In this document: positions 2,152 through 18,650 of the stretch, in pieces
Layout: every line of letters starts with the position of its first letter
Numbering within the stretch: position 1 is the stretch's first letter
Made by a program: the position numbers and the translations under genes
Notes under the pieces: generated by a model
Told to the model about the DNA's origin: nothing
What the model saw: only the letters and a program-made list of their open reading frames with translations
Database searches by the model: none
From: Planctomycetota bacterium
GTDB taxonomy: Bacteria; Planctomycetota; UBA11346
DNA length: 38,429 nt
Assembly (NCBI GenBank): GCA_003136555.1
Contig: PLEW01000122.1
Location: 1 to 38,429 of the forward strand
Direction of reading: 5' to 3'

Positions 2152-2160
2152 GGTCAGGCA
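2141..2160. repeat. 10-base tandem duplication at the kinase/regulator junction
   Basis: TGGTCAGGCA occurs twice in direct succession. On the coding strand each copy carries ATGCCTGA. One copy supplies the kinase TGA stop and the next supplies the regulator ATG start, so the junction sits inside the duplication. Confidence 0.8.
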
Positions 2161-4160
2161 TGGTGCGGCAGGGAGATGGTGATGGAGGTCCCGTGCTGAG
2201 GCGCAGAATCGACGCTGACGATTCCACCGTGCTTCGCGGCACGCCGCTGAAGATTGACCAGGCCCATCCCTCCTCCCTTGAGGGCGGAGGGATCGAAGCC
2301 GCGCCCGTTGTCACGCACGGTCAGGATGAGGGTTTCATCCCCTTGCGCGAGCGTGATGTCGGCATGCGTCGCCTGTGAGTGCCGCACCAGGTTATGCAGC
2401 GATTCCTTGAGCATCAGCACGAGGTCGCGCCGCTGGTCCATCCGCATGCGGTTGAAGGCCGCCGCGGCCGGTTCATGCAGTTCGTGCGGGATGTTGCGGA
2501 GGATGCGGTCGATGATGTCGCGAAGGTGCTCGATCAGGTCACCTTGGCCATATTTCCCGCTCTGGGCGAGTCGCACGAGGTCGCGCATCGTATCGAGCGT
2601 CTGCCGTGCCGTATCGCGGATCTCAGCCAATTCCTGCTGCATGGCTTCGTCTCTCGTGAGCGCGAGCGCCTCTTCGCTTATCAAGACGATGCAGCCGAGG
2701 CTGCTGCCGATGTCGTCGTGCAGATCCTGCGAGATGCGCTGGCGCAAGGCATCCATTTCCAGGCGGCGGTCGCGACGATGCCGGAGATTCGCTCCGAGCA
2801 GCGCAAGCACTACGGCAACGATGGCTGCCGCGAGTATCCACCAGGAGATCATGATGAACCGCGAACGGATGTCGGACGACCTGGTGTCGATTTGGGCGAT
2901 CCTCTGCATGATCTCGCGGCGATGCGATAGGCCGAGAAGCCAGTCCCCCAGATCGAGGATGTTCGCGCGGCTGGTGAAACCGTCCACCAGAGCCGCGCGC
3001 GACCAGCCGTTCCCCTCGATCGAATCGAATGCGCTCACCTCCTTGCCGAGCGCGACATTCGTGTCCCCGGACCAGACCTGCATCTCGGAAAGCGCGAAGA
3101 GGTAGCGCCCATTGGCATTGAACAGCTGCGGTGCGGACACGCGCACATAGCGGGCGGTTTCATCCCGGGCGACGAAGCTGATGGCATTCTCGCCAGGGCC
3201 GACCGGGGCGCGCGGCTCCGCGCCGTTGCCCCCCTCCAGGCCGGACAGCTCGACGGCATTGCGGAAGCTCAGATCATTCGCCAGCTGGACGGTCAACCCA
3301 GGCGGCCAACCGTAGCCTGGACGATGCGAGAATTCTGGCGGATAGGCCGGGAACAGCCGAACTTCATTTACCGGCATGACCTCGCCGAGATCCACCTGGA
3401 CCCAGCGTGGCGATGGGTGAGGCTCACGCTCGAGGACGACTGGCTGGCTGGAATAGCCCAGGGTCGGGCTCGGCCTTGAGCCCTGTGGCGGGCCGAGCAC
3501 CGAATGGCCATCCACGAGATTCGAGAGTCCCCACACCGGCAGCGCACCCATGGTGCGGCTGGAGGTGAAATCGCTGCGGCCAAGTCCGGCGGCGATATTG
3601 CGCTTCCCCTGGAGTACGATGATTTCGCCGAGCGCGAACAGCGCACGTCCGCCATCCTGATACAGCCTGGTTGCCGTGATGCGCACGAAGCGCGCACGCT
3701 TCCCGGCGCACGGCAGATAGACTGGCAGCGTGCCTGGATTGGCGAAATCGGTCGGCGTATCGCCAGCGATCACGGTGCGCCCCGCCTGGTCTGCGCTTTC
3801 GGATATCTCCACACGGAAACGCGCAGGGAAGCCGTAGCCCGGCACTATCGCCCGACCGCTGTCGGAAGCGGCCGGCACCAGCACCACGGCATCGAGCGGC
3901 TCCTCTCGCCGCAGATCCACTTCCACCCACTCCACCGTATTGGAGGACGCCGAGAATCCGCTGTGATAACCGATGCGATCCGTGAGTTGCGGCGTCGGCG
4001 CCGGAGGCAAGGGGACGAGGGCAGCCTCCAGGTCTCGTCGTTCAACGTCGTTGTGCCGCAGTTCGGAACTGAACCAGGAGAGCGACGCGACCTGGGCGAC
4101 GCACCCACCCACCACCAGCGCCGCAAGACCGATCGTCAGCTGGACGGTGCGACGCATCAT
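2154..4160 (-). CDS. Membrane histidine kinase with discoidin-like (F5/8C) sensor domains
   Basis: This 668-aa protein has an N-terminal membrane anchor (about 7-28). Two discoidin-like galactose-binding-fold repeats follow at about 58-186 and 188-365; compare LYQDGGRALFALGEIIVLQG with LFNANGRYLFALSEMQVWSG. A third, truncated repeat begins NVALGKEVSAF near 369. A transmembrane helix spans about 435-457. The HisKA_3 phosphorylation site is H481 (DLHDDIGSSLG). The ATPase domain has an N box near 585-595 and G boxes DNGRGFD (617-623) and GGGMGLVNL (629-637). The domain order implies extracytoplasmic binding of a carbohydrate or glycan signalling inward to the adjacent NarL-type regulator. The ligand is unknown. 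ATG 4160 and 4157 are alternative starts; no clear ribosome site is seen. Confidence 0.9.
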   Translation of the reverse strand: MMRRTVQLTIGLAALVVGGCVAQVASLSWFSSELRHNDVERRDLEAALVPLPPAPTPQLTDRIGYHSGFSASSNTVEWVEVDLRREEPLDAVVLVPAASDSGRAIVPGYGFPARFRVEISESADQAGRTVIAGDTPTDFANPGTLPVYLPCAGKRARFVRITATRLYQDGGRALFALGEIIVLQGKRNIAAGLGRSDFTSSRTMGALPVWGLSNLVDGHSVLGPPQGSRPSPTLGYSSQPVVLEREPHPSPRWVQVDLGEVMPVNEVRLFPAYPPEFSHRPGYGWPPGLTVQLANDLSFRNAVELSGLEGGNGAEPRAPVGPGENAISFVARDETARYVRVSAPQLFNANGRYLFALSEMQVWSGDTNVALGKEVSAFDSIEGNGWSRAALVDGFTSRANILDLGDWLLGLSHRREIMQRIAQIDTRSSDIRSRFIMISWWILAAAIVAVVLALLGANLRHRRDRRLEMDALRQRISQDLHDDIGSSLGCIVLISEEALALTRDEAMQQELAEIRDTARQTLDTMRDLVRLAQSGKYGQGDLIEHLRDIIDRILRNIPHELHEPAAAAFNRMRMDQRRDLVLMLKESLHNLVRHSQATHADITLAQGDETLILTVRDNGRGFDPSALKGGGMGLVNLQRRAAKHGGIVSVDSAPQHGTSITISLPHHA

Positions 4161-4525
4161 AGAAGGGGGGATCGTAGCTGCTCACCCAGTACCTCGCCAC
4201 CCCTTTTGCCTGCTGGCATGCGCACCGGCGAGCGCCTGAGGGATCATCGTCGTCGTCAGGGCGGACCACGGCTCTGCTGGCGTCGAGACAGCGAGACTCA
4301 GCTGCGTCAGCCGCCAGCGGACAGAGCACGGAAGCAGCCCCGCCACCCTCATTGGCCGCCATGGAGATGGGCGACCCCGCTGCAGGGGATCGCCTTAAGC
4401 CGATGATGCGCCAGCCCTTATCCAGGATCATGCAGCGCTGCGGTCGGCAGTCGGATGGTCATGGGGAACCCTGTCCGAATGTTCGGGGGTTCCACGCTCA
4501 CGGTGCCATCGCTACCCTCCAGGCC
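4161..4525. other. Divergent intergenic region between the kinase and cytochrome genes
   Basis: This separates the leftward two-component operon from the rightward cytochrome operon. The ORF track extends the cytochrome back to 4352, but that extension has no signal peptide at its start. The clearest element is the hairpin/palindrome at 4465-4493. No good sigma70 promoter is evident. Confidence 0.6.
4465..4493. promoter_or_regulatory. Nested inverted repeat upstream of the DUF1592 cytochrome
   Basis: GGAACCC pairs with GGGTTCC, and inside it CCGAA-TG-TTCGG is a second perfect inverted repeat. Together they give 12 base pairs with a three-base bulge. The element ends 32 bases before the chosen ATG. 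It could be an operator for the neighbouring NarL-type regulator or a 5'-UTR hairpin; the sequence does not decide between these. Confidence 0.45.
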
Positions 4526-6943
4526 ATGATCCCCCGTCCGCGCACCATCCATCTCGCTGCGATGCTGCACATCGCCGTCTGCGCGTGCTGCGCCGCGGAG
4601 TCCGCGGATTTCGAGAAGACGGTCACACCATTCTTCGCCGAGAATTGCCTCAAATGCCATGACGCGAGGAAGCAGAAGGGCGATCTCCGGCTCGATACGC
4701 TGCCTCTGGATTTCATCGGCGAGAAGAATGCCGGTCACTGGACCGATATCCTCGACCGCCTCACTTCAGGCGATATGCCGCCGGAGAAGGAATCGCGCCC
4801 GAAGCCGAGGGAGACGGCCGCGGTGGTGGAGTGGATCGCCACCCAGCTGGCGGAGGCGGAGTCGGCGCGTCACGCCACCTCGGAGCGCGTCTCCTTCCGC
4901 AAGCTCACGCGTGATGAATACGTGAATACAATCCACGATCTGCTCGGCGTGACCTATGACGCCTTCAGCACCATGGGCATGGGGGAGGACCCGAATTGGC
5001 TCGGCTTCGAGCGCATCGGCTCGGTCCTCTCGTTCGCGCCTGCGCACATCGAGAAGTATCTCAGCGCCGCACAGCAGGTGCTGAACGAAGCCCTGCCACC
5101 AGGACCGAAGCCTCCATGCAAGCTCATCCACTGGGATCCCTTCGGCATGCGTGAAGCCTGGGGTGGGATGAAGAAGGATTTCGAACGCCAGGGCAACGCG
5201 GCAGCGGTCCGCTTGCCGATCATCCCGAGCAGCAATGCCGTCGGGGTGGTCGGCAAGCGGCTGAATCTCCTCATCCCCTCCACCGGCGTCTACCTGCTGA
5301 GAGTGAAGCTCAGCGGCCTGCATCCGGCGCAGCGCCTGCCGCCGCGGTTGCGCATCTATGAGGCGGATATCGACAGCATCCTGGCCGAACAGGATGTGGA
5401 TGCGCCCGAAGATCGGCCCGTGACGCTCGAATTCCGGGTGCATCTGACCGCAGGGAATCACGATATCGATGTGATGAACGCGGTGCCTGGCCTGGCGAAA
5501 CCCATCCAGGACAGCAACCACGCGGTGTTCACCAGCCTGCATGCGCGCATGCCATGGCAGCAGAAGCTCACCGACGATGCCGATCAGCCGCTGCGGCCGT
5601 TCCTGATCCTGGATTTCGTCGAATGGGAGGGTCCGCTCTGCGAATCGTGGCCGACACCGGCGCAGCGTGAGATCTTCGGTAATGGAACCCGCGACGCCGC
5701 CCAGGCCCACGACATCATCGCGCGCTTTGCAACCCGCGCCTTCCGCCAACCGGTGGCGATCGAGGAGATCGAACGCTATACGCAGCTCGTCGAAGCCGAG
5801 ATGAAGGCTGGCAAGGCCTTCGAACCGGCGGTGAAGACCGCGTTGGCCGCGATCCTCTGTGCGCCGAACTTCCTCTACCTCGTCGAAGGCTCACCCGCGA
5901 AGGCGACCACGACCCTCAACGACTACGAGCTTGCGGCGCGGCTGTCCTATTTCCTGTGGAGCACGCAGCCTGATGACGCATTGCGCACTCTTGCGGGAGC
6001 CGGAAGGCTCCATGACGAGGCGACCCTCCGCAGCGAAGTGCGGCGCATGCTCGCTGATCCCAGGGCAGCGGCATTCGCCGAGGCCTTCCCGCGCCAGTGG
6101 CTGCAATTGCGCCGGGTCGGGATGTTCGCGCCGGACAAGGCCCTCTATCCCGACTACGACGACTACCTGCAGAAGAGCATGATCGCCGAGACCACGAGCT
6201 TCTTCCATGAGGTGCTGGCGAAGAACCTCAGCCTGCGCAACTTCCTCGATTCCGACTGGACCATGCTCAACCAGCGCCTTGCGCTCCATTATGGGATCGC
6301 GGGCGTGACCGGAGAGGCCATGCAGCGCGTCTCTCTCAAGCCCGAGGATCATCGCGGCGGCCTGATGACCCAGGCCGCAGTGCTCGGGCTCACCTCCGAC
6401 GGCACCCGTCACCGCCCGGTGCATCGCGGGAAATGGCTGTCCGAATCCATCCTCGGCCGGCCGGTACCGCCGCCGCCGGCCAATGTCCCGGCGATCAAGG
6501 CCGCGCAGGCCGCCGCGCCCAAGACCAGCCTGCGCGACAAGCTCGCTGCGCACCTGGAGAACGCCTCCTGCGCGGCCTGTCATCGCAAGATCGATCCACT
6601 CGGACTGGCCTTCGAGAACTATGACGCCATCGGCCGCTGGCGCACCGAGGAGACCGTGCGCGACGGTTCCGGCGCCAATCCGAAGGTGGACGCAAGCGGC
6701 GAGCTGTCCGATGGCCGGAGATTCGCCGACGTGAACGCCTTCAAGAAGCTGATGCTCGACGATACCGACAAGTTCGCGGCCGCCTTCACGGAAAAGCTCG
6801 CCACCTTCGCCATGCGCCGCGTGATGACCTTCTCCGACCGCGCTGAACTCCAGCGCATCGCCGCGACGAGCAAGGCCGACGATTACCGTCTGTCGACGCT
6901 GATCGAGATCTTCGTGACGAGTGCACTCTTCCAACGACGCTGA
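4526..6943 (+). CDS. Secreted multidomain cytochrome: PSCyt1-DUF1587-DUF1595-DUF1592-DUF1588-DUF1585
   Basis: I start at ATG 4526 rather than the track's 4352 because it gives an immediate signal peptide (IHLAAMLHIAVCACCAA) and an 805-aa product of usual family length. A PSCyt1 heme motif CLKCH sits at 41-45 and a DUF1587 segment from about 121 (FRKLTRDEYVNTIHDLLG). A carbohydrate-binding-like insert lies around 225-350, DUF1595 near 389-452, DUF1592 near 464-532 (YELAARLSYFLWSTQPDD) and DUF1588 near 593-655. A second heme motif CAACH is at 682-686 (HRKIDPLGLAFENYDAIG), then DUF1585 to the end. Such proteins are exported and typically paired with a DUF1552 protein, as here. The biochemical role is unproven. 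It is the first gene of a four-gene rightward run. Confidence 0.92.
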   Translation: MIPRPRTIHLAAMLHIAVCACCAAESADFEKTVTPFFAENCLKCHDARKQKGDLRLDTLPLDFIGEKNAGHWTDILDRLTSGDMPPEKESRPKPRETAAVVEWIATQLAEAESARHATSERVSFRKLTRDEYVNTIHDLLGVTYDAFSTMGMGEDPNWLGFERIGSVLSFAPAHIEKYLSAAQQVLNEALPPGPKPPCKLIHWDPFGMREAWGGMKKDFERQGNAAAVRLPIIPSSNAVGVVGKRLNLLIPSTGVYLLRVKLSGLHPAQRLPPRLRIYEADIDSILAEQDVDAPEDRPVTLEFRVHLTAGNHDIDVMNAVPGLAKPIQDSNHAVFTSLHARMPWQQKLTDDADQPLRPFLILDFVEWEGPLCESWPTPAQREIFGNGTRDAAQAHDIIARFATRAFRQPVAIEEIERYTQLVEAEMKAGKAFEPAVKTALAAILCAPNFLYLVEGSPAKATTTLNDYELAARLSYFLWSTQPDDALRTLAGAGRLHDEATLRSEVRRMLADPRAAAFAEAFPRQWLQLRRVGMFAPDKALYPDYDDYLQKSMIAETTSFFHEVLAKNLSLRNFLDSDWTMLNQRLALHYGIAGVTGEAMQRVSLKPEDHRGGLMTQAAVLGLTSDGTRHRPVHRGKWLSESILGRPVPPPPANVPAIKAAQAAAPKTSLRDKLAAHLENASCAACHRKIDPLGLAFENYDAIGRWRTEETVRDGSGANPKVDASGELSDGRRFADVNAFKKLMLDDTDKFAAAFTEKLATFAMRRVMTFSDRAELQRIAATSKADDYRLSTLIEIFVTSALFQRR

Positions 6944-6957
6944 CCAGAGTGATAACC

Positions 6958-7953
6958 ATGAAATGCCTCGCCGCCCTCCTCTCCACGATACTGTCCATCG
7001 CCGCGCTGTCCGCGGGAGACGCGACCGCGCCGGCGGCTTCCGCACCGCCTGATCTCAGGATCACGCCGGGCAAGGTCATCATCCCGACCGGCACATCCAT
7101 GCGGCGGATCTGGGGCGAACTGGTCAGCATGGATCTGGCCACGCGCACCGGCACCTTCCGCAAGGATGGCACGGACCAGCTGATGCCCTTCGCCGTGATG
7201 CCCTATGCCGAGCTGCTCCATCATGCGACCCTCGGCGACCTCCAGGATTTCCGCATCGGCGAGCGAGCCATCTTCCGCCTCCATGAGGATGGGAAAGGGG
7301 AGTGGGTCGCGCTCACCTACATCCAGGATGAGATGAACATGATGAACAACCACAAAGAGTATTTCTATGTGGATAGCATCGATGCGGCGAAGGGCAGGCT
7401 CATCTGCACCTGGGCGAACGCCGATCAGAGCTTCATCCGCCAGAAAAATGTGCTGATCGAGACCGATCATGACACGCGCTACTGGAAGGCCGCAAAATCG
7501 GCGACCTTCGCGGACATCGCCATCGGCGGCAAGCTGCGCACCAAGACCCATGGCATCGGCAAGGGCAATACGCGCATGTGCTGGGAGGTCTTCCTCGATG
7601 ACGAGAGCCTGATCGCGTTCCAGACCGAGCAGAAGGCCGTCCATCAGCGGCGCATGGTCGAGGAAGGGCTGCCCGGGTACGTGGATGTGGCGGTGGCGGC
7701 AGCAGCGGCGGCGGTCGACAGCGTGGTGCAGTTCACCCTGTTCCCGGAAGGCCGTGGCTTCTTCGCCCAGCTCAAGGTCGGCGGCGCCGCCCGCGTCGCG
7801 CCAGCGGGTCCAGACCGCAAGCCGACCATGCCTCCGGTCCCAGCGATCATCACCGCCGTCAGCGGGGCGGAGGTGAGCGTCAGCCTGCCCTCCGCAGCCG
7901 CCGCCACCTTCCAGGCGGCGGGCATCGCCCGGCTGTGGCCGGGCGCGCATTGA
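6958..7953 (+). CDS. Secreted protein with one copy of an unrecognised module (module A)
   Basis: This 331-aa protein starts at ATG 6958, 14 bases after the cytochrome stop; GTG 6949 is an alternative. It has a clear signal peptide (KCLAALLSTILSIAALSAG). I do not recognise the family. The region about 35-230 matches two regions of the protein at 9515-11491. It opens GELVSMDLATRTGTFRKDGTDQLMPF, continues with an acidic -IGERAIFRLHEDG- segment and ends LPGYVD. The C-terminal 90 residues are alanine/proline-rich and may form a separate small beta domain. Its position between the DUF1592 and DUF1552 genes suggests it acts with them outside the cytoplasmic membrane. Confidence 0.8.
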   Translation: MKCLAALLSTILSIAALSAGDATAPAASAPPDLRITPGKVIIPTGTSMRRIWGELVSMDLATRTGTFRKDGTDQLMPFAVMPYAELLHHATLGDLQDFRIGERAIFRLHEDGKGEWVALTYIQDEMNMMNNHKEYFYVDSIDAAKGRLICTWANADQSFIRQKNVLIETDHDTRYWKAAKSATFADIAIGGKLRTKTHGIGKGNTRMCWEVFLDDESLIAFQTEQKAVHQRRMVEEGLPGYVDVAVAAAAAAVDSVVQFTLFPEGRGFFAQLKVGGAARVAPAGPDRKPTMPPVPAIITAVSGAEVSVSLPSAAAATFQAAGIARLWPGAH

Positions 7954-8013
7954 CCAACGCGGCGCTCCATAGCGGCAACCTCCCACCACCACCAGCGGAA
8001 CCCGAGTGACACC

Positions 8014-9417
8014 ATGAGCAATATCCGATCCCAGCGCTGGCTGCTTGATCGCCGTCACGCCCTGCGCGGCCTTGGCGCCATCATCGCCCTGCCCCTGCTC
8101 GACGCGATGTGTCCCCTGAGCGCTGCGGCCCCCCCCGCCGCTGAGACGGCAGCCAAGCCGCGCCGCAGCGTGTTCGTCTACATCCCCAACGGCGTCAATG
8201 GCATGACCTGGCAGGTAAAGAAGCCTGGTCGCGGCTTCGAGCTCTCCACCGCGCTTGCACCGCTCGCCGCGCACCGGGATGCGCTCACCGTCTTCAGCGG
8301 ACTGCATCACCCCAACGGCATCGGCTCGGCGCACGTCTGCGCCGACCTCTGGCTCACCGGCGCGAAGCTCGACGACAAGGGTCGCAGCGCGCGCAACAGC
8401 GTCTCGTGCGATCAGCTCATGGCCGAGGTCACCTCGCGCCAGACGCGCTTCGCCTCGCTCGAGCTATCGATCACGGCAGGCGTCGGGCAGCCGAACAACA
8501 CCACCACCCTGGCCTTCTCGCGCGACGGCGTGCCTCTCCCGGCGGAGGAGAACCCGCGCACGGTCTTCAACCGCCTCTTCGTCCCCGATCCAGGCGGCGC
8601 GAAAGCCGAAGAAGAGCGGCTGAAGACCGGCCGCAGCATCCTCGATTCGGTGCTCGGTGCCGCGAAATCGCTGCGGCGCGGGCTGGGCAGCGAGGACTAC
8701 TCGAAGCTCGACGAATACCTGCACGCCGTGCGCGATGTGGAACAGCGGACCGAGAGGCTGGAATCCTGGCTCGACGTCCCGAAGCCGGTGCTCGGCAAGG
8801 CTGAAAGCGACAGGTTCCAGCGCAACGTCCCCAAGGCGCAGGCGGGCGAATATTACCGCACGATGTATGATCTCATCGTGCTCGCATTTCGCACCGATGT
8901 GACGCGCGTGGTCACCTACCTGAGCGGCAGCGAGGGCGTCGGCCTGGCCATCCCGGAAATCGGCATCAGCCAGCAGCGCCACTCGCTGTCGCACCACAAC
9001 TGCGATCCTGAGATCCTCGACCGCCTGACCAGGTGCGATGCATTCCTCATGCAGCAGTTCGCCTATTTCCTCGATCAGCTCAAAGCGGTGAAGGAGGACG
9101 GTGAATCGCTGCTCGATCGCACCATGGTCCTGACCGGCAGCGGCATGAGCTACGGTCACGGCCATGGCAACGCCAACCTCCCCATCATCCTCGCCGGCGG
9201 CAGCGGACTCGGACTGAAGCATGGCCAGCACCTCGACTACAATCGCATGGGCGTCGCGGGCTATGCACTCGACAACGACGAGTGGCACTCGCTCAGCTTC
9301 AAGCCCAAGAACGGCGATGCCCGGTTGAGCAATGTCCTGCTGACCATGCTCCAGAAGATGGAAGTCAATGCTGCGCGGTTCGTGGACAGCCTGGGGCCGG
9401 TGGCGGAACTGGGATGA
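8014..9417 (+). CDS. Tat-exported DUF1552 protein
   Basis: This 467-aa protein has a twin-arginine signal (LLDRRHALRGLGAIIALPLLDAM), implying export of a folded protein. The body is typical DUF1552: FVYIPNGVNGMTWQVK near the N-terminus, FSGLHHPNGIGSAHVCADLWLTGA, a YSKLDEYLHAVRDVEQR helix, and MVLTGSGMSYGHGHGNANLPIILAGG near the C-terminus. DUF1552 belongs broadly to the alkaline-phosphatase/sulfatase-like fold, but activity is undescribed as far as I know. DUF1552 and DUF1592 genes are commonly adjacent in planctomycetes, supporting a joint secreted system. The gap to module A is 60 bases. Confidence 0.9.
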   Translation: MSNIRSQRWLLDRRHALRGLGAIIALPLLDAMCPLSAAAPPAAETAAKPRRSVFVYIPNGVNGMTWQVKKPGRGFELSTALAPLAAHRDALTVFSGLHHPNGIGSAHVCADLWLTGAKLDDKGRSARNSVSCDQLMAEVTSRQTRFASLELSITAGVGQPNNTTTLAFSRDGVPLPAEENPRTVFNRLFVPDPGGAKAEEERLKTGRSILDSVLGAAKSLRRGLGSEDYSKLDEYLHAVRDVEQRTERLESWLDVPKPVLGKAESDRFQRNVPKAQAGEYYRTMYDLIVLAFRTDVTRVVTYLSGSEGVGLAIPEIGISQQRHSLSHHNCDPEILDRLTRCDAFLMQQFAYFLDQLKAVKEDGESLLDRTMVLTGSGMSYGHGHGNANLPIILAGGSGLGLKHGQHLDYNRMGVAGYALDNDEWHSLSFKPKNGDARLSNVLLTMLQKMEVNAARFVDSLGPVAELG

Positions 9418-9514: not shown

Positions 9515-11491
9515 ATGAGCTGTCACCGATCCATGAGGGGGGCACCCGCCCGCACACTGCATTGTCCGCACCTCAGCCCACTGCGACTCGCCGTTCTGCT
9601 GTGGTGGCTGGGCATGGTTGCGCCATGCGCCGCGGAGTCGGCGGCGACCGCCGATGCACGGTCGCCTGCCCGCGGCGACATCGCCACCGCAAGCACGCCC
9701 CCGTACCGGCCGAAAGCCGGCGAATTCCCGCCCTTCCACACCGAACATCGCACCGAGGGCACCTTGCTGGCGGTGGATTATGTCCATCGCACGGGCGTCC
9801 TGCGCGATGACGGCACCGGCGACCTGGTCGATTTCTCCATGCCGCCGTTCGCCGGCGTGCGGTATCTCAATGCCCAGGCCGATCTGCGCGACATCCCGCT
9901 CGGCATCAACCTCTCCGTCTTCCTCCACCCGGATGATTCCGGCGCGTTCACCCAGGTCACCTGGCTGTGCGATGATTTCACCAGCATGGCCGCTCGCAAC
10001 GCGACGTATCACCTTGATGGATCGAAGGTTGGAGAGGGGATGCTGATCGCCTCCCTGCAGTATCCGGGAAGGCATGAGATCGCTTCCGGCAGCCAGAAGC
10101 TGCTGGTGGATGCCCGCACCCGGGTGTGGAAGGACGGAAAGCAGATCACGCTCGGCGAGCTGGTCGTGGGCGACGCATTGCTGGTCAACCGCGGCGCGCG
10201 CACCGCCGCTGGGATGGGACCGTGCGTGGATATCTGGGTCGGGGCCGACACCCACCAGCGCGCCACTGCGGGGCAGCGCGCACGCCAGCGCGATTCGCTC
10301 AAGCTGCGTGGCCTGCCTGGCTGGGTGGATAGCGACGATGACACCCATATCGTCATCACGCTCTTCTCGAGCGAGGATCGCAGCGTCGTCCAATCGCTCT
10401 TCACCGACAAGGAATTCCCCGTCGGCAAGGATCTCTATGTCGCCACGACCAACCGCGAACTGCGCACCTACGACGCCAATGTCGACGGCGTGCGGGCGCA
10501 ATTGCTCAGGATCGAATCCGCACCGTTGGATTGCTATGGCAGCAGCGGCATCCGGCTGGTGCTCAAGCCCAACGAAATGCTCGAAGGCTTCCGTCCAGGC
10601 GGCTTGCTGCGGATCTTCAACGCCGAATGGCCGGTGAAGAAGGGCCCGGCGGACCCGCTGTTCGGGGAGGCCCTGGGCAACTATCATCTCGTTCATTCCC
10701 CGGAGATCCTTGACCCGCTCGCGCACGAATTCCCCTTCCGCACCGATTTCGGGAATGAACAGATGCCGTGGTACCAGCTCCAAACCGGCGTCACGCCGCC
10801 GCCGTTCTCCGAGCATCTCGTACTCGGCGAACTGGTCAAAGTGGACGCCAACGGGCATGGAGGGCAATTCCGCAGCGATCGCAGTGGCGACCTGGTCGAT
10901 TTCAACCTCCTGCCCCAGGGCGGCATCCTGCAGCGAGTCGCCTACAATCGCGTCGCCTCCCCGGTGCGGATCACCGAGAGCGTCTCCTCGGTGCTGTACC
11001 TCGACGCCGACGCGACGCTCGCCGATATTCCCCTCGGCACGCGCTGCCGCTTCCAGCTGTATCAGGATGGGATGCATGCCTTCACCCAGGTCGGACTGAT
11101 GATGGACGAGTTCACCCGCCTGGCGCTGAACCACGTTCTCTATCGCATCGAGGATCTGCGCCTGGATGCCGGCAGGCTCCATATCGTCCGGCATCTCCCG
11201 CAGGTGAAGAACTACCACGAGGATATCGCCACACCGCTCGACCTTGGACGTGCGGAACTCGATGTGGATGCCCGAACCCGGGTCTGGAAAGGGGCCAAGC
11301 AGATCGGGCTCGCCGATCTTGCCATCGGTGATGAGCTGCTCATCAACCTATCCGGCCAGAGCCGGCATGATCCTGGCCGCTGCACCGACCTGTGGGTGGG
11401 TGAGGAAGCGCAGAAGCTCGCAACCGCTGCGCAAATGAGGAAGAACGACGCGCGCCTGAAGGCGGCCAAGAAGGCGGCGCCCGCGAATTGA
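9515..11491 (+). CDS. Secreted protein with two copies of the same unrecognised module (modules B1 and B2)
   Basis: I choose ATG 9515 because the track start at 9368 lies inside the DUF1552 gene; ATG 9533 is also possible. The product is 658 aa with a long signal peptide (LRLAVLLWWLGMVAPCAAE). Two tandem copies of the module seen at 6958-7953 are visible. B1 begins GTLLAVDYVHRTGVLRDDG with DLVDFSMPP, -DIPLGINLSVFLHPDDSGAFTQV- and DARTRVWKDGKQITLGELVVGD. B2 begins GELVKVDANGHGGQFRSD with DLVDFNLLP, -DIPLGTRCRFQLYQDGMHAFTQV- and DARTRVWKGAKQIGLADLAIGD. The lysine-rich tail ends the protein. Function unknown; operon position implies work with the DUF1592/DUF1552 pair. Confidence 0.82.
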   Translation: MSCHRSMRGAPARTLHCPHLSPLRLAVLLWWLGMVAPCAAESAATADARSPARGDIATASTPPYRPKAGEFPPFHTEHRTEGTLLAVDYVHRTGVLRDDGTGDLVDFSMPPFAGVRYLNAQADLRDIPLGINLSVFLHPDDSGAFTQVTWLCDDFTSMAARNATYHLDGSKVGEGMLIASLQYPGRHEIASGSQKLLVDARTRVWKDGKQITLGELVVGDALLVNRGARTAAGMGPCVDIWVGADTHQRATAGQRARQRDSLKLRGLPGWVDSDDDTHIVITLFSSEDRSVVQSLFTDKEFPVGKDLYVATTNRELRTYDANVDGVRAQLLRIESAPLDCYGSSGIRLVLKPNEMLEGFRPGGLLRIFNAEWPVKKGPADPLFGEALGNYHLVHSPEILDPLAHEFPFRTDFGNEQMPWYQLQTGVTPPPFSEHLVLGELVKVDANGHGGQFRSDRSGDLVDFNLLPQGGILQRVAYNRVASPVRITESVSSVLYLDADATLADIPLGTRCRFQLYQDGMHAFTQVGLMMDEFTRLALNHVLYRIEDLRLDAGRLHIVRHLPQVKNYHEDIATPLDLGRAELDVDARTRVWKGAKQIGLADLAIGDELLINLSGQSRHDPGRCTDLWVGEEAQKLATAAQMRKNDARLKAAKKAAPAN

Positions 11492-12070
11492 CTGGATCGG
11501 GGGCCAATAGCCCTCCCACTTCCAGTGGTCGTCGTAGCCGCAGACCGCCGCGACGTCCTTTGCGCGCGCTGCATCCCGATTCTGCGCCCCGCAGGCGCTC
11601 CCGTTGCGGCCACGCGTCATGCATCCATGAGGGAGAAGGACGGCCACGGCCATCTCCCGGTTGACCATCCACCGACCGTGACCTGATCGCGCCTGGTCTA
11701 GAGCCTCGACGACGTGTCATCCCGTCCCGGTTGCGACCAGGATCGTCCCGAGGTCAGACGCAGATGGTTGGATGGTCGCTGGCGGACGCCGTCCTCTGTC
11801 GCCACATCCTGCGGCGGGGCTCCGCGGGAGGTCATCGTCGAATCCGCTCGCAGCCAGCGACAATTCGAGAAGCGCCTATCCCGGATCGTGAGGACCGGGT
11901 ATGCGGCGGTACGGAGTGCGATCAGTAGCCGCGTTCACCGGCATCTGCGACGACAATCACCTGGATGCGCGGAGCTTCACTGCCTGCCGCTGAATGCGTG
12001 TGCCGGACGTTCGCGACTGCCGCGCACAGTCCCCCCTTGAGACCCGCTGCCGGCCCTCATCGTCTGACAT
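11492..12070. other. 580-base region without a supported gene; possible gene remnant
   Basis: No ORF here has a recognisable family or ribosome site. On the minus strand, about 11500-11600 reads in coding-like codons as ...KDVAAVCGYDDHWKWEGYWPP..., a tryptophan-rich stretch that looks more like protein than shadow. The frame then runs antisense through the end of the module gene. It may be the remnant of a lost gene. Confidence 0.4.
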
Positions 12071-13780
12071 ATGCCCAGGCGTGAATCCATCGAGCGTCCC
12101 CACCGGGCCATCGACCAGCTTGTGCAGCGGAAGAATGACGAGCTGCAGCGCATGGCCCGGCTGTTCACCTCGAAACCGGCGGCCAACAAGGCTGCGCTGG
12201 CCAAATTCCTGGTCGATCGTGCCACCCCTCCGCTGCTGGCTCAGACGCTGGAGCTGGTCGGCGATGGGGGCCGGAAGCTGCTGGCCCATGCTGCCCATGG
12301 CAACGGCCTGCTGCGCACGGCACAGAAGGCGGTACCCGACTTTCATCTCGGGAGCTGGAAGTGGTATGGATATGGGGAACGCACGGTACGACCGTCCCCG
12401 GTTCTGATCTTCTTCCCCGACGGTGAGCAGCTCCCGTCCGACTATCGAGCCCGGTTGGCGAAGCAGCTTCCAGCCCCCCCATCGCCGCCGCTCGAGCCTC
12501 TGGCGGGGGATCCACCAGGGACCATCGTCCCGAGCGACCCCCTGGCGGATGCGGCCCTTATCCTGCACCTGGTGAAGGAGGGCGGACTGCAGACCGCCGT
12601 CAACGGCTTGAGCCCGGCGTGCCTGAAGCGCCTGGCCGCAAGCGCCATCGGCGTCAGCGGCGAGCGCCGCGGCGATCAGTTGCGCCTGGGGTCCTTCGCC
12701 GCCCTGCTCGAGGAAAGCGATCTCATCTCCAGGACCTACACGGGCTGGAAGGCGAAGCGCACCGCCATCGGCCACGCCGAATTGATGGCCATCTTCACGC
12801 TCTATGCGCGCAGCGAGCTCGATGAGATCGGCCAGATCGTCAGCATCCGGGGCCGCAACCATTCCTATGCTCCGTGGACGGATCCGGCCGTTCGCCGCCA
12901 GGAACTGCTGCGCGTGCTCCGTGGCTGCCGGCCAGGAGCATGGTACGCTACCCGTGATCTCCTCGACCATGCTGCCGCCACCGCTGCGGTCGACACGCTC
13001 CTGAGCACCACCGACCTGGTGCGCATCGGCAGGGATTACGATGGCTCCATGGACAACCTGGGCGAGGCCGGGCTGGACCTGATCCGGGATGCGTGGATGC
13101 GCATGGCCCTGTTCGCCTATCTCACCCCCCTGGGGGTGATCGAGATCGCGGTCGGGGATCCGGAGCCCATCCCGCCAGCGATCCGGGCGCTCACCCGGGA
13201 CGTCGATGACTTCCCCACCTCCCTGTCGCCCGCTGATACGATGACGGCGGTGCGCCTCACCCCGCTGGGTCTGTGGCTGCTCGGTCTCGGTCCGGAGCCC
13301 ACCAGGGCGACGGGGGAGCCGGGCGGTTGGCGCATCCAGGCGGACGGGACCGTCGTCGCCCTGGGACAGCGCGTCGGTCCCCGCGAGCGGCTCCTGCTCG
13401 ATGCCGTCGGCAAGCACCAGGACGAGCGCACGTGGCGCATCGAACGCGCCTCCCTGATCGCGGCCATCGCCGGCGGCCGGACGGCCGCCGCGCTGCGGGA
13501 ACAGCTCGAGTCCCTCTCCCGGACAGCCCTCCCCGATGCGCTGGTGCGTCTCCTCGAGGATGCCAATCGCCGCGCAACCGCGATCGTCATCCATGGCCCC
13601 GTGGTCCTGCTCACGGTGTCCGATCGGACCGCTGCCGAACAGCTCATCCATGACCGCGCCACCGCGTCGCTATGCCGGAGCTTTGGCGACGGGGTCATCG
13701 CCGTGACTCCCGGCAATCTCAATGAACTGCGCCGAGCCGCCCGCAAGCTCGCCTGGCACATACCTGCGTATGACAGCTGA
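12071..13780 (+). CDS. Helicase-associated (Helicase_C_3/XPB-associated-like) protein, paralogue 1
   Basis: This 569-aa protein is clearly related to the 590-aa protein at 15947-17719, which precedes the XPB helicase. The C-terminal third aligns: WRIQADGTVVALGQRV, then ERTWRIERASLIAAIAGGR, LREQLESLSRTALPDALVRLLEDANRRATAI, against VHADGSVVATGVV, ERAWRIDRDRLLRACEEGR, LPDAVSRLMDDAQRRFTAI. This matches the helicase-associated domain found next to bacterial XPB-type helicases (Helicase_C_3, PF13625; for example the pair Rv0861c/Rv0862c). The N-terminal part also aligns with the paralogue (IDQLVQRKNDELQRMARLF). There is no helicase motif, so it is probably a DNA-binding or regulatory partner. The start is supported by the N-terminal alignment; no ribosome site is seen. 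Confidence 0.75.
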   Translation: MPRRESIERPHRAIDQLVQRKNDELQRMARLFTSKPAANKAALAKFLVDRATPPLLAQTLELVGDGGRKLLAHAAHGNGLLRTAQKAVPDFHLGSWKWYGYGERTVRPSPVLIFFPDGEQLPSDYRARLAKQLPAPPSPPLEPLAGDPPGTIVPSDPLADAALILHLVKEGGLQTAVNGLSPACLKRLAASAIGVSGERRGDQLRLGSFAALLEESDLISRTYTGWKAKRTAIGHAELMAIFTLYARSELDEIGQIVSIRGRNHSYAPWTDPAVRRQELLRVLRGCRPGAWYATRDLLDHAAATAAVDTLLSTTDLVRIGRDYDGSMDNLGEAGLDLIRDAWMRMALFAYLTPLGVIEIAVGDPEPIPPAIRALTRDVDDFPTSLSPADTMTAVRLTPLGLWLLGLGPEPTRATGEPGGWRIQADGTVVALGQRVGPRERLLLDAVGKHQDERTWRIERASLIAAIAGGRTAAALREQLESLSRTALPDALVRLLEDANRRATAIVIHGPVVLLTVSDRTAAEQLIHDRATASLCRSFGDGVIAVTPGNLNELRRAARKLAWHIPAYDS

Positions 13781-13792
13781 CGGGCATCACCG

Positions 13793-14206
13793 ATGCCCGA
13801 TGCTATCGTCCATCACCAAGACCATCCGATGCCCAACCATGCGAACCGCAAGCGACGCACCACCTCACGCGCCGGGCGGGCGCGTGCTCGGCCTGGGTCG
13901 ATCGAGACTTTGAATGCGCTCATCGAGGAGGCAACCGTCGACGCCTATGGCGACGAGCAGCAGATCGGTGGTTTCCACAGCTGCCTGGAGGAACGGTTGG
14001 AGGTCCCCTTCGCCACGGTCGTGCTGGGCATACCGGTGCAGGTGACCGGTATCGATTACGACGAGGCAGGACTGCTGGTCGCTACCTGCATCAGGGGGAA
14101 GCTGGTCCAGCGCATCTCGCTGCTTGAGCTTCCACTACCCGAGCCTCCACCCCCCGGGCACGAATGGATCGCCGCCTATCGACACTGGAGTCGCGGCAGA
14201 GGATGA
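13793..14206 (+). CDS. Small CcbP-like protein (possible calcium-binding family)
   Basis: This 137-aa protein begins 12 bases after paralogue 1, so it is probably cotranscribed; ATG 13829 (MPNHANRKRR) is an equally plausible start. It has a basic tail, then EATVDAYGDEQQIGGFHSCLEERLEVPFATVVLG, a small beta segment (VQVTGIDYDEAGLLVATCIRG) and an EWIAAYRHW end. The order 'DAYxxxE...YLEExLxFPF...V.V.G...P...WxxW' recalls the calcium-binding CcbP family (PF11535). The match is by eye and uncertain. Its link to helicase-associated genes is more informative than the family name. It converges on the XPB gene with a 67-base gap. Confidence 0.6.
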   Translation: MPDAIVHHQDHPMPNHANRKRRTTSRAGRARARPGSIETLNALIEEATVDAYGDEQQIGGFHSCLEERLEVPFATVVLGIPVQVTGIDYDEAGLLVATCIRGKLVQRISLLELPLPEPPPPGHEWIAAYRHWSRGRG

Positions 14207-14273
14207 CCCTCAGTGGTGGCGACCGTGGATCGGCAGGAGACCCCGGTCAGGCGTCAGTCGGGCCGGTCGGGGA

Positions 14274-15950
14274 TCAGGCGATGCCGTCAACGATGGCATA
14301 GTGGTAACCCTGCTCGCACAGGAACCGTTGGCGGTTCAGGGCGAAATCCTGCTCGATGGTATCGGCACTGACCAGCGTGTAGAAATGGGCGACGTTGTCA
14401 CCGGGCTTGGGCCGCAGCAGCCGGCCGAGGCGCTGGGCCTCCTCTTGGCGGCTGCCGAAACTGCCACTGACTTCGATGGCGAGCGCAGCATCCGGCAGGT
14501 CGACGGCGAAATTCGCCACCTTCGAGACCACCAGGGCACGGATGCGTCCGGCACGGAAGTCGGCGTACAGCGCATCGCGTCGTGGCTGCGGGGTGCTGCC
14601 GGTCAGCAGCGGCAGGTCCAATGAATCGGCAATGGCGCCGAGCTGATCCACATAGGTGCCGATGACCAGGGCAGGTGACGCAGGATGCCGAGCCAGCAGC
14701 ACCCGGATGGCGTCAAGCTTGGCCGGATTCTCAGCGGCGGCACGCAGCTTGCGCCGGGGGTCCGCCTGGCAATAGGCAGCGAAGGCCGCACCGGTCAGCG
14801 GCAGACGCACCTCGGTGCAGCGTGCACTGGCGATCCAGCCCTGGGACTCCAGTTCGCGCCATGGGGAATCGTAGCGCTTCGGCCCGATCAGGGCGAACAC
14901 CTCGGCCTCGCGCTGGTCTTCCCGTACCAGGGTGGCGGTCAGCCCCAGGCGTCGACGCGCCTGGACTCCCGCAGTGACCTGGAATATCGGCGCGGGGAGC
15001 TGGTGGACCTCGTCGTAGATGATCAAGCCCCAGTCGCGGCGCTGGAACAGATCGAGATGCGGGAAGCCGCCGGTGGCGGAATCGCGATGGGTGAGGATGT
15101 GGTAGGTGGCCACCGTGACCGGACGCAGATCCTTGACGGTGCCATCGAATGCGCCGATCTGATCCGGCGTCAAGGTGGTCTTGTCGAGCGCCTCGCTGAT
15201 CCATTGCCGGACTGCAGTGGTCGAGGTGGTCAGGACCAGGGTGGCAGCGCCCACCTGGGCGGCGGCCGCCAGGCCGATCACCGTCTTGCCCGCTCCGCAG
15301 GCCAGGACCAGCACACCGGAGCCGCCCCGGGTGCTGCCGCCGGCCAGGAAGGCGTCCACCGCGGCATGCTGATAGTCGCGAAGCGCGAAGGGCGCGCCGC
15401 CAGGTAGCTCCTTCCGCATCGCCAGGCTCAGCGCTTCGCCCGGGGTGAACCCGGCCCGGTCATCGACCGGGTAGCCGGCCCTGGTCAAGGCCACCTTCAG
15501 TTTTCCTCGTTCGAGCAGGGGCACCTGGATGGCGCACGCGCTCAGCTGCTCGCCGAGATGGTGGTGGATGCCGGGCAGGGTGCGGATGTGGCCGGCGAGC
15601 GCTGCATCGCGGCACTGCAGCACCAGTCCATCGTCCAGGGGGGATCGTTCCAATGTCAGCTTGCCCCAACGGCCCGCCCATTCGTTCAGGCGCACGGTGA
15701 TCGTCTCGGGCAGCGGGAAGCGCGAGAGCTCCGCCAGCATGCGCAGCGTGGCGCTGACGTCCTTGCCGATGGCGCAGGTGTTCCACACCGACAGGGCGGT
15801 GATGCGCCAGCTATGCACATGCTCGGGCGATTTGACCAGCTCGGCGCAGTGGGCCAGGCATTCGCGTGCATCCGCATAACGCGGATGATCGACTTCAACC
15901 AGGACGGTGAGGTCGCCCTGGATGATGAGCGGCCGGGATGGGTCGTTCAT
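14274..15950 (-). CDS. xpb: XPB/ERCC3-type superfamily 2 DNA helicase
   Basis: I start at ATG 15950, which overlaps the upstream gene's TGA in an ATGA; the track start 16001 lies inside that gene. The 558-aa product has an N-terminal helicase-associated region (PLIIQGDLTVLVEV... to about 160). The helicase core has Walker A ACGAGKT (217-223), DEVH box (313-316) and motif III TAT (338-340). The XPB-specific RED motif is at 343-345 (LVREDQRE), followed by ALIGPKRYDSPWRELESQGWIA, which closely resembles human XPB. Motif VI is QRLGRLLRPK (507-516). XPB is a 3'-5' helicase or translocase in nucleotide excision repair and transcription; bacterial roles are less settled. All catalytic motifs are intact. 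No nuclease partner such as Bax1 is in the window. Confidence 0.93.
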   Translation of the reverse strand: MNDPSRPLIIQGDLTVLVEVDHPRYADARECLAHCAELVKSPEHVHSWRITALSVWNTCAIGKDVSATLRMLAELSRFPLPETITVRLNEWAGRWGKLTLERSPLDDGLVLQCRDAALAGHIRTLPGIHHHLGEQLSACAIQVPLLERGKLKVALTRAGYPVDDRAGFTPGEALSLAMRKELPGGAPFALRDYQHAAVDAFLAGGSTRGGSGVLVLACGAGKTVIGLAAAAQVGAATLVLTTSTTAVRQWISEALDKTTLTPDQIGAFDGTVKDLRPVTVATYHILTHRDSATGGFPHLDLFQRRDWGLIIYDEVHQLPAPIFQVTAGVQARRRLGLTATLVREDQREAEVFALIGPKRYDSPWRELESQGWIASARCTEVRLPLTGAAFAAYCQADPRRKLRAAAENPAKLDAIRVLLARHPASPALVIGTYVDQLGAIADSLDLPLLTGSTPQPRRDALYADFRAGRIRALVVSKVANFAVDLPDAALAIEVSGSFGSRQEEAQRLGRLLRPKPGDNVAHFYTLVSADTIEQDFALNRQRFLCEQGYHYAIVDGIA

Positions 15951-17719
15951 TCCGGGCAGCTCCAGCCCATCGCCCGGATGGCCTTGCGCGCGGCCTTCCA
16001 ATCCGCGTTCCGGACCGCCAGCTGGTCCTTTTCAAGGCGGCGCAGGTACTTCCCGGTGCGGGGATCCCCCAGCAGCAGCTGCGCCAGCTCCTCCGGCACG
16101 TGGAAGGCGCGCCAGCTGCCGGCGTCGGTGATCGCGGTGAAGCGGCGCTGGGCATCGTCCATGAGGCGGCTGACCGCATCCGGGAGTGGTCCGGCCTGGG
16201 CCAGGAAGCCACGCAGATCATCCAGACGGCGGCCTTCCTCGCAGGCACGCAGCAGGCGATCGCGATCGATGCGCCAGGCGCGCTCAGTCTCGGACTGGAG
16301 CCAGCCGTCCAGGAGGATGCGATCGGAGACCGGGACGACACCGGTGGCCACCACGCTGCCATCGGCGTGCACGCGCAGACACGATGGCGCAGGAGGAGGA
16401 GCCGCGAAGGTATCACGGGAACCGAGGATGTAGGCACCCAGGTCCGTGACGCGGAATGCCCGCAGCCCATCATAGCGGCTGAGGAAATCCAGGTCATCGG
16501 CCCCCCACAGGCCACGGTAGTCCGGTGCGGCTCCCCATGGTGGGACCAGCGCCAGATCGACCACCCCAAGGGTCGCCAGATATTCCACCAGCACCACCGC
16601 GAGGTAGCGCATCTCCAGGATCTCCCAGCCATGACTGCCGTTAAAGCCCAGGTTGCCATAGCGCTTCTCGCTCAGGTAGAGCTCCCAGGGTGCGGCATCG
16701 CAGACCCGCAGCCGTTCATCGGCACCCTGCAGCCAGCGTCCGAAGTCGGCCAGCGCCACCCAGCGGCCTGGGGGCACCAGGCGCAGCTGATCGAGGATGA
16801 TGGCCCGGCGATCAGCGGGATCCGAGAACGAGTCGGCACCGCGTCCGCTCTGGCCCTTGATCGCGTCGATGCGGCGGAATTCGTCCACATCGCTGGCCTT
16901 CGACCACCGCTCGCAGCAATCCCTGAGTGCGCAATGGGCGGGCATTGCCATCGCCGCGGTGCCTTCGGACGTCAGCTGCCGTCCACCGGCGGTCATGGGC
17001 GAGTAGCTGCAGGCGTACATCAGGGTCGGCCACGCCACCGGCCGGATCGGGCCGATCGCCTGCGAGGTGCCGCCGCTTCCAGGCAGGTCTGCCACCCCAT
17101 CGTAGACGTCAGGCTCCGCAAGTACCGCCAGGATCGCGCGCTGACTGGACGAGGTGGGGAATCCGGCATCGGTGCAGCGCAGCGCGCCCGTCTCGGCCAA
17201 GCGCAGGACACCATGGAACTCCCGCAGGGCTATGGTGGCGGTGTGGATCAACCGCATCCCGGCTTCAGCGGGCGGATCGCCATCACAGCACCGTAGTGGC
17301 GGCCTAGGCGGAGCCGTGAGCAGGGCCTTGAGCGGCTCGACCAGGGCAGGAATTACCTCCCTGGTGTCGCCAATCAGCACGCAGACCAGCAGGCGGACGC
17401 CATCGTTGCCCGAGCGGTCGACACCCGGATGCCGGGGATCCCTCTCGGCAGGGCGCAGGGTGACCCCGAAGCGGCTCTTCAGGCGCACTGGATCGATATA
17501 ACCCTTGTGATGCACGGCATCGGCGAGCGCGAGCCGCTCGCTCTCATTCATGCGCGCAATGGTCTGCGCGAGGCCGTCCCCGTGCAGTTGGCGCGCGACG
17601 AGATCGGCAAGATCCCCTTGGCGGGTGGGCAGATTCTTCTGCCCAAGCATATAGGCGAGGCTTCTGAGCTCCTTGGCGGTACGTAGCGCGAAGCTGTCGA
17701 TCAGCTCAGGGAGGCTCAT
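15947..17719 (-). CDS. Helicase-associated (Helicase_C_3/XPB-associated-like) protein, paralogue 2
   Basis: Starting at ATG 17719 gives 590 aa; the track's extra 12 residues are upstream noise. The C-terminal 190 residues carry the helicase-associated pattern shared with paralogue 1 (SCLRVHADGSVVATG, ERAWRIDRDRLL, LPDAVSRLMDDAQRRFTAI). The protein ends with a basic segment (YLRRLEKDQLAVRNADWKAARKAIRAMGW). Its stop overlaps the XPB start by four bases (ATGA), so the two are translationally coupled and probably made in matched amounts. Its start overlaps the 199-aa gene's stop by 14 bases. It lacks helicase motifs. This gene order (associated protein, then XPB) parallels the actinobacterial arrangement. 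Confidence 0.8.
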   Translation of the reverse strand: MSLPELIDSFALRTAKELRSLAYMLGQKNLPTRQGDLADLVARQLHGDGLAQTIARMNESERLALADAVHHKGYIDPVRLKSRFGVTLRPAERDPRHPGVDRSGNDGVRLLVCVLIGDTREVIPALVEPLKALLTAPPRPPLRCCDGDPPAEAGMRLIHTATIALREFHGVLRLAETGALRCTDAGFPTSSSQRAILAVLAEPDVYDGVADLPGSGGTSQAIGPIRPVAWPTLMYACSYSPMTAGGRQLTSEGTAAMAMPAHCALRDCCERWSKASDVDEFRRIDAIKGQSGRGADSFSDPADRRAIILDQLRLVPPGRWVALADFGRWLQGADERLRVCDAAPWELYLSEKRYGNLGFNGSHGWEILEMRYLAVVLVEYLATLGVVDLALVPPWGAAPDYRGLWGADDLDFLSRYDGLRAFRVTDLGAYILGSRDTFAAPPPAPSCLRVHADGSVVATGVVPVSDRILLDGWLQSETERAWRIDRDRLLRACEEGRRLDDLRGFLAQAGPLPDAVSRLMDDAQRRFTAITDAGSWRAFHVPEELAQLLLGDPRTGKYLRRLEKDQLAVRNADWKAARKAIRAMGWSCPE

Positions 17720-18305
17720 GGGTGGGCGATTGTTCGCTCCTGATCGTGTGCGCAACCTGGGATATCGTGCCTGCCGCTCGCCCAGAGGCTCCGAGGGGAG
17801 GGTCGCCTGCCACTGCCTGGCTGGTCGATCGAGCCGGGTGCTCGAGGGCCTCGGGATGCTGATTGGCGAAGCTCTGCGGATGCCCGGCGGGATACGTCAT
17901 GGTGTCCTCCATCGCGGGGCTGATGGCATGGGCGGCAGAAACCGTGGTCGGTGTGATCATCGCCGCCGATGATGACCCCTCATCGACGGACAGCAGCCGA
18001 CCCGTCTGCTGGTCATCTCTTCCGTCGGGATTGTAGTACCGGTCCAGCGCTTCGTACTCCTCCATCTGCCACATGGCGATCGGATCGCCGGCAATGAGGT
18101 CCAAGACATCCAAGCAGTGCCGCGTGGTGGTGGAAGGCCGCGGTCGTGGTGTGACGCCCTGGCGTGCGAGCCGCTGTGCGTCGACCAGACGCGCCTCGGG
18201 GATGGAGACTCCGAGCAGGCGCAATTCCAGGATGGCGCACAGGCGATCGGTACCGAACCACCTGCTGTATCCGCGAACGAGATCCTTGCCACGGTAGGTT
18301 GGCAT
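17706..18305 (-). CDS. Unknown 199-aa protein, first gene of the XPB operon
   Basis: I start at ATG 18305 (MPTYRGKDLVRGYSRWF); the track extends to 19028 across a region occupied by a plus-strand gene. I do not recognise the protein. The N-terminal 35 residues (GYSRWFGTDRLCAILELRLLGVSI) look like a compact helical element. A second ordered part is CLDVLDLIAGDPIAMWQMEEYEALDRYYNPDG. The C-terminal 85 residues are low-complexity and probably disordered. Overlap with paralogue 2 (14 bases) places it in the XPB operon, so a role in the same process is inferred. Its real extent upstream is moderately certain. Confidence 0.6.
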   Translation of the reverse strand: MPTYRGKDLVRGYSRWFGTDRLCAILELRLLGVSIPEARLVDAQRLARQGVTPRPRPSTTTRHCLDVLDLIAGDPIAMWQMEEYEALDRYYNPDGRDDQQTGRLLSVDEGSSSAAMITPTTVSAAHAISPAMEDTMTYPAGHPQSFANQHPEALEHPARSTSQAVAGDPPLGASGRAAGTISQVAHTIRSEQSPTHEPP

Positions 18306-18650
18306 CCATGTCTTCGCCTGCTGAAGACGCCCTTCTCGTTTCAGGCGACGGCGTCGTGGGCAGGGCATGTTCCGCATCCTGTGTGACGCGAGCTGAAGGG
18401 AAGCCGCCGCTGACGCAGCGACCCCTGCTACAGAACCGTGCCCCGGGGTGAATGCAGCCAGCCCGACGTCACTGCGGCTTCGTTGCCACCGGGTTCGATC
18501 CGTTGTGATCACCACCAGGGGGGCGCTGCCGCCCATCCGGCGGTCCCTTCCGGACTGCGACGTTGCCCATGGTCGCATGGTCTGATCGCTTGCTTCGCTT
18601 TCTGCTTCGGCTCCAATCGGCAGGAACCTGAAGCGGGACAGCGAAAGACC
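18306..18650. other. Divergent promoter region of the XPB operon and the 122-aa gene
   Basis: No supported gene. A small hairpin GTCTTC-N7-GAAGAC lies at 18310-18328, just upstream of the 199-aa start, and GTGATCAC near 18504 is palindromic. I see no strong -35/-10 pair on either strand. Confidence 0.5.

Follow-up and report, generated by a model that had tools for sequence, protein, structure and literature searches.

Two helicase-associated proteins (HAPs) encoded beside an XPB helicase gene in a planctomycete genome resemble p52, as their predicted structures suggest. This likeness, which is absent from the preliminary description of the DNA, is the main discovery of the present analysis. 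In humans, p52 anchors XPB within the transcription and repair factor TFIIH. The locus lies in a window of 38,429 nucleotides, the whole stretch of DNA that was analysed (Planctomycetota bacterium, contig PLEW01000122.1), and contains one XPB gene and two HAP genes, HAP1 and HAP2, whose respective types are designated H1 and H2. HAP1 and XPB together are probably the bacterial equivalent of TFIIH's XPB-p52 module.

The XPB/ERCC3 helicase gene occupies positions 14274–15950 of the minus strand and encodes 558 amino acids. It had been described as intact, and the gene is indeed complete, with all motifs present (Walker A ACGAGKT, DEVH, the RED motif VREDQRE and QEEAQRLGRLLRP). The protein belongs to the NCBIfam DNA repair helicase XPB equivalog NF045503, scoring 767 bits against a cut-off of 610. 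Its N-terminal clutch-type domain (PF13625, E 5.2e-26) covers residues 14–141 of the translation (15546–15929, minus strand). In the XPB tree, the protein is placed beside the XPBs of its family (100/98), on a longer branch. The same genome also carries, at 2945–4513 and 4542–5801 of contig C19 (L231), a DRD-containing XPB of archaeal type, which adjoins a Bax1-like nuclease that matches 6p66_B (E 3e-13); two different XPB systems thus coexist in this genome.

HAP1 (590 amino acids; 15947–17719, minus strand) precedes XPB, and its stop codon shares an ATGA with the XPB start (15947–15950, minus strand), an overlap that bears out the earlier report of coupling between the two genes and points to translational coupling. 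HAP2 (569 amino acids; 12071–13780, plus strand) faces this pair. As the preliminary description held, it is a second, diverged copy, 27% identical to HAP1 across almost the full length (E 5e-32), and its frame is intact with codon use of the coding type. HAP2 passes the gathering score of PF13625 (Helicase_C_3; 43.7 vs 34.2 bits) through a clutch domain at residues 422–534 (13334–13672, plus strand), which is also recognised by structural match to the XPB N-terminal domain (NTD) plus DRD. HAP1 falls below the same score (17.8 vs 34.2 bits), and at E values up to 1 the profile matches 51 of 52 H1-type members. The HAP1 clutch domain was located at model residues 444–529 (16130–16387, minus strand) by its structural match to XPB NTD 6ro4_A. 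In a 35-row HAP tree, which omits most single downstream HAPs, ten H1 proteins form one group (89/80) and four H2 proteins another (100/100). The two are sister groups (100/99), separate from the downstream HAPs. HAP1 represents a type found across phyla (H1) and HAP2 a family-specific type (H2).

The likeness to p52 emerges from the predicted structures. The AlphaFold2 model of HAP1, built from 52 sequences, has a pLDDT of 89 and a pTM of 0.85; the corresponding values for HAP2 are 80 and 0.71. When the HAP1 model was compared with the PDB by Foldseek, p52/Tfb2 chains took all of the first 19 places (E from 1e-5), and the XPB NTD came next. TM-scores were low (0.20–0.34 by query length for 17 matches with E up to 0.001), since domain order agrees better than overall arrangement. 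VIA-align superimposed HAP1 on p52 8ebs_D with Z 15.6 over 306 residues (rmsd 5.0), model residues 141–586 aligning co-linearly to p52 130–461. It also found the XPB NTD 6ro4_A (Z 12.4, 84 residues, rmsd 1.7), the C-terminal domain of Tfb2 (Z 5.0) and, at the N-terminus, a SAP domain (Z 4.0). The first unrelated protein in these lists, which cannot exclude other families, was FokI (Z 4.7). For HAP2, the top Foldseek match was p52 8ebt_D (E 7.6e-6), and VIA-align gave p52 8ebu_D at Z 12.7 over 234 residues; its top-ranked match for HAP2 was not p52 but the XPB NTD plus DRD 7egb_6 (Z 14.2), which aligns to model residues 413–568. In both predicted models the domains follow the p52 order (winged helices, then the clutch, then a p52-CTD-like tail), and HAP1 is predicted to bear an additional SAP-like N-terminus.

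Sequence profiles add to this picture in the relatives. The Tfb2 profile PF03849 matches neither HAP in the window nor any protein elsewhere in the same genome, so the p52 link of HAP1 and HAP2 themselves rests on fold. Among sister-group HAPs, 9 of 51 match Pfam Tfb2, mainly in the clutch. One of these, from L140, exceeds the cut-off (37.5 vs 34.5 bits), and it is the only one to do so. Most such matches are confined to the clutch, a domain that XPB also carries; the L116 HAP matches outside it too (profile 187–356, E 0.0044). A profile built from sister HAPs (A5) retrieved from the PDB Tfb2 6trs_A (E 4.1e-6) and, of human proteins, XPB (E 7.6e-6) and p52 (E 4e-4). Two tandem clutch domains of the PF13625 type occur in the HAPs of L140, L117, L111, L107, L109 and L214, and weakly in that of L039.

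Among known systems, the locus is close in plan to TFIIH. As in XPB-p52(-p8), the helicase has a clutch-type NTD, and its partner, judging from the predicted models, combines winged helices, a clutch and a p52-CTD-like tail in the same order. The locus differs from TFIIH in that genes for p8, p34, p44 and p62 were not recognised among the genes examined, HAP1 adds its SAP-like N-terminus, two paralogous partners are present, and the host is a bacterium without RNA polymerase II. A pair of XPB and one HAP is known from actinobacteria, and the pairing of XPB with a HAP is in itself no new gene order. With the bacterial pairing of XPB and a single PF13625 HAP, the locus shares adjacent genes that often overlap. 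That pairing usually has one downstream HAP (53 of 66 loci), whereas in the window HAP1 precedes XPB, an order shared with 17 of 80 H1 loci, and is faced by a second paralogue. Archaeal XPB-Bax1 likewise joins an XPB-type helicase to a neighbouring partner gene, but Bax1 is absent from this locus: none of its five genes scanned is Bax1-like, the one such gene noted being that on contig C19.

What is new, relative to the open PMC literature, is the p52 identity of the HAPs and the paralogue pair. A 2012 paper reports that bacterial p52 homologues were not found (PMC3353954). In the sections seen of a 2026 review, the function of bacterial and archaeal XPB is described as more elusive and a bacterial p52 is not named (PMC13024598), and the portions consulted of two papers on p52 do not mention bacteria (PMC7708078, PMC9557730). 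A search of the open PMC literature found no description of bacterial HAPs as p52-like. Through the predicted folds of its HAPs, the locus in the window suggests a bacterial XPB-p52 unit of the kind reported missing in the literature searched.

Gene pairing with XPB is a further property shared with p52/Tfb2. A survey of XPB neighbourhoods found a HAP adjoining XPB in 60 of 66 XPB loci, a chosen sample that favours different families and HAP1-type genomes. The HAP is downstream only in 53 loci, upstream only in three (including the window) and on both sides in four; three loci lack a HAP despite sufficient room, and another three are cut by a contig end. The neighbourhood is not due to chance, and an adjacent HAP is the rule. 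A HAP2 on the strand facing XPB was seen in one of the 66 loci, the window itself; outside this sample, a HAP also faces XPB in L214. Two HAPs beside one XPB, usually co-directional, occur in G017, G015, G344 and G212 within the sample and in L193, L201 and L214.

XPB matches with an E value of 1e-20 or lower occur in 17 of the 40 related genomes; in some of these the match is solely to a different XPB-like helicase. Four genomes of the window's family carry this XPB type (G006, G015, G017 and G021). In three of them a relative of HAP2 lies directly upstream of XPB, with identities of 52% (G017), 43% (G015) and 36% (G006). G017 and G015 have a further HAP downstream of XPB (HAPdown), giving the operon HAP2-XPB-HAPdown; for G006 and G021, the downstream HAP and the last part of XPB fall on another contig. 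The G015 HAP2 is interrupted and occupies two frames. No HAPdown turned up in the genome of the window, which is 86% complete. In another planctomycete, G303, XPB and after it the beginning of a HAP stand at one contig end (L092), and the end of a HAP with a HAP1-type gene after it at another (L078); these are probably a single XPB-HAP-HAP1 operon cut by the assembly. The earlier suggestion that absence of the convergent pair from relatives would signal chance adjacency applies to the facing orientation, which is missing there, but not to the association of HAP2 with XPB, which is kept in three of four family genomes.

HAP1-type genes are far more widely distributed. At E 1e-10, H1 was counted in 16 of 392 genomes from the phylum; HAP2-type matches in genomes of the family are part of this number. 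A contig scan with the HAP1 type retrieved 242 relatives, 80 of them retained, from Proteobacteria, Acidobacteriota, Cyanobacteriota, Planctomycetota and others; the same scan with XPB alone retrieved no relatives. Five H1 loci probably lie on the same contigs as planctomycete loci (L155/G303, L186/G080, L200/G212, L208/G232 and L212/G259), so the two sets overlap. Of the 80 loci, 17 have XPB immediately after H1, two have it upstream and five elsewhere within the stretch. The examined stretch of the other 56 contains no XPB, although 47 of these extend at least 1 kb downstream and nine are cut short. The adjacent H1-XPB pairs span several phyla, and 6 of the 17 show the same ATGA overlap. The HAP1-XPB pair of the window is thus an ordinary cross-phylum pair, and HAP2, whose relatives sit upstream of XPB in the family, is the family's own XPB partner, here displaced to the facing strand.

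Among sampled lone H1 genes no conserved neighbour was found, the surroundings consisting largely of overlapping shadow ORFs as well as unrelated housekeeping genes. Individual loci deserve mention in their own right. Lone HAP1-type genes overlap a gene for a large SNF2 helicase in L202 (9760–13947) and L226 (9707–13951), both from purple sulphur bacteria, and L156 has an SNF2 helicase by a weaker match. In L064 (G037), a RES-domain gene at 11343–12011 adjoins a lone HAP1-type gene.

Two small genes flank the HAPs, and the preliminary description had joined them with XPB and both HAPs into one five-gene system. After HAP2 lies an open frame of 125 amino acids (13829–14206, plus strand) that had been called CcbP-like. 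The frame is present, but its match to the CcbP calcium-binding profile PF11535 (E 0.0049; 17.8 vs 21.5 bits) is below the gathering score, and its membership of the system is uncertain. Of the 40 relatives, eight carry a CcbP-like gene. G017, the sole family relative with both this gene and the HAP2-XPB operon, has it on a different contig, and in G037 it lies on contigs other than that of XPB. Among 48 H1-type genomes, picked from the 80 loci and mainly with longer stretches, seven have a CcbP-like gene, two of them directly beside H1 (L156, 6155–6517; L171, 6299–7093). This exceeds what chance would easily give, yet does not suffice for a claim. In L171 the protein carries an additional C-terminal part, which resembles the gene upstream of HAP1 in L207. 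On the other side, a small gene described as a 199-residue unknown overlapping HAP1 does exist as a frame (17706–18377, minus strand), with its start corrected from 18305 to about 18377. Its first 70 or so residues match a 150-residue protein of G057 (49%) that is not near XPB. Its last 50 or so codons score below chance for coding and this tail has no match, so the C-terminal part and with it the overlap with HAP1 are doubtful. Relatives of this gene were found near none of the 80 H1 loci, nor did it match plasmid or viral contigs; it would be at most a candidate member of the system. A single system of all five genes is thus not supported. Elsewhere in the window (2154–9417) are typical planctomycete genes: a histidine kinase with an F5/8 type C domain, a DUF1592/1588 cytochrome protein and a DUF1552 protein.

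Several other explanations bear on why two HAPs accompany one helicase. HAP2 may be a leftover of a rearranged HAP2-XPB-HAPdown operon, redundant or decaying since HAP1 took the place beside XPB. The operons of G017 and G015, the failure to find HAPdown in the window's genome and the broken HAP2 of G015 are all consistent with such a course, and it is a possibility to be taken seriously, if a doubtful one: the HAP2 of the window is itself intact, has coding-type codons and retains 52% identity to the G017 protein, and two HAPs per XPB recur in further lineages. This recurrence makes the earlier idea of two adaptors for one helicase reasonable, even if the five-gene unit around it is unsupported. 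A stricter version, in which one XPB needs two clutch partners acting jointly, as two proteins or as one double-clutch protein, would account for the loci with paired HAPs and for the double-clutch HAPs listed above. It is rather unlikely, given that 53 of 66 XPB loci have a single downstream HAP, mostly with one clutch, and that HAP1 and HAP2 of the window do not share an operon.

It is improbable that the HAPs look p52-like merely through the clutch shared with XPB and common winged helices, while having some other role, for instance as DNA-binding regulators. Such a reading draws on the confinement of most Tfb2 sequence matches to the clutch, and on the many H1 genes whose fetched stretch has no XPB, two of them beside SNF2 helicases; it is countered by a co-linear match of about 300 residues with a Z score far above that of FokI, and by the L116 match that extends outside the clutch. 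The suggestion that the locus is an anti-phage defence module fares worst and is highly improbable. The scatter of H1-type HAPs across many phyla would fit it, as would the PbeA models of PADLOC, which match XPB weakly. These matches are only partial and fall in the helicase core, and PADLOC found nothing for the HAPs, the CcbP-like protein or the small unknown. The neighbours of sampled lone H1 genes look mutually unrelated, and the XPB of the window branches with those of its family.

For the XPB-p52-like module, a role in DNA repair is most likely, as judged from what is known of the family. The clutch of a HAP would pair with the XPB N-terminal domain as a pseudo-symmetric dimer, in the manner of p52, and its p52-CTD-like tail may contact RecA2 of XPB. 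The winged-helix and SAP-like parts could bind DNA or other proteins and so guide XPB on DNA. The HAP would thereby load and regulate XPB as an ATP-driven translocase on double-stranded DNA, opening damaged or blocked DNA. HAP1, coupled to XPB by its gene, would be the main partner, and HAP2, the separately expressed family-type partner, may be either an alternative p52-like subunit or a second one.

The chances are about even for a broader proposal, namely that the p52-XPB translocase core spans bacteria as an XPB-HAP operon, with two p52 paralogues, or a double-clutch protein, per XPB here and in several other lineages. Since two-HAP loci recur and some HAPs have a double clutch, XPB may in general have the option of several clutches, and these loci would raise the question why a single helicase should require a pair of clutch partners. 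Human repair disease affects the way p52 regulates XPB; if the HAPs indeed are partners of the p52 kind, this regulation would become open to study in a bacterial system of two or three proteins, and the origin of TFIIH would become traceable. Should the XPB-p52 core indeed span bacteria, the p52-XPB clutch would not be a eukaryotic invention.
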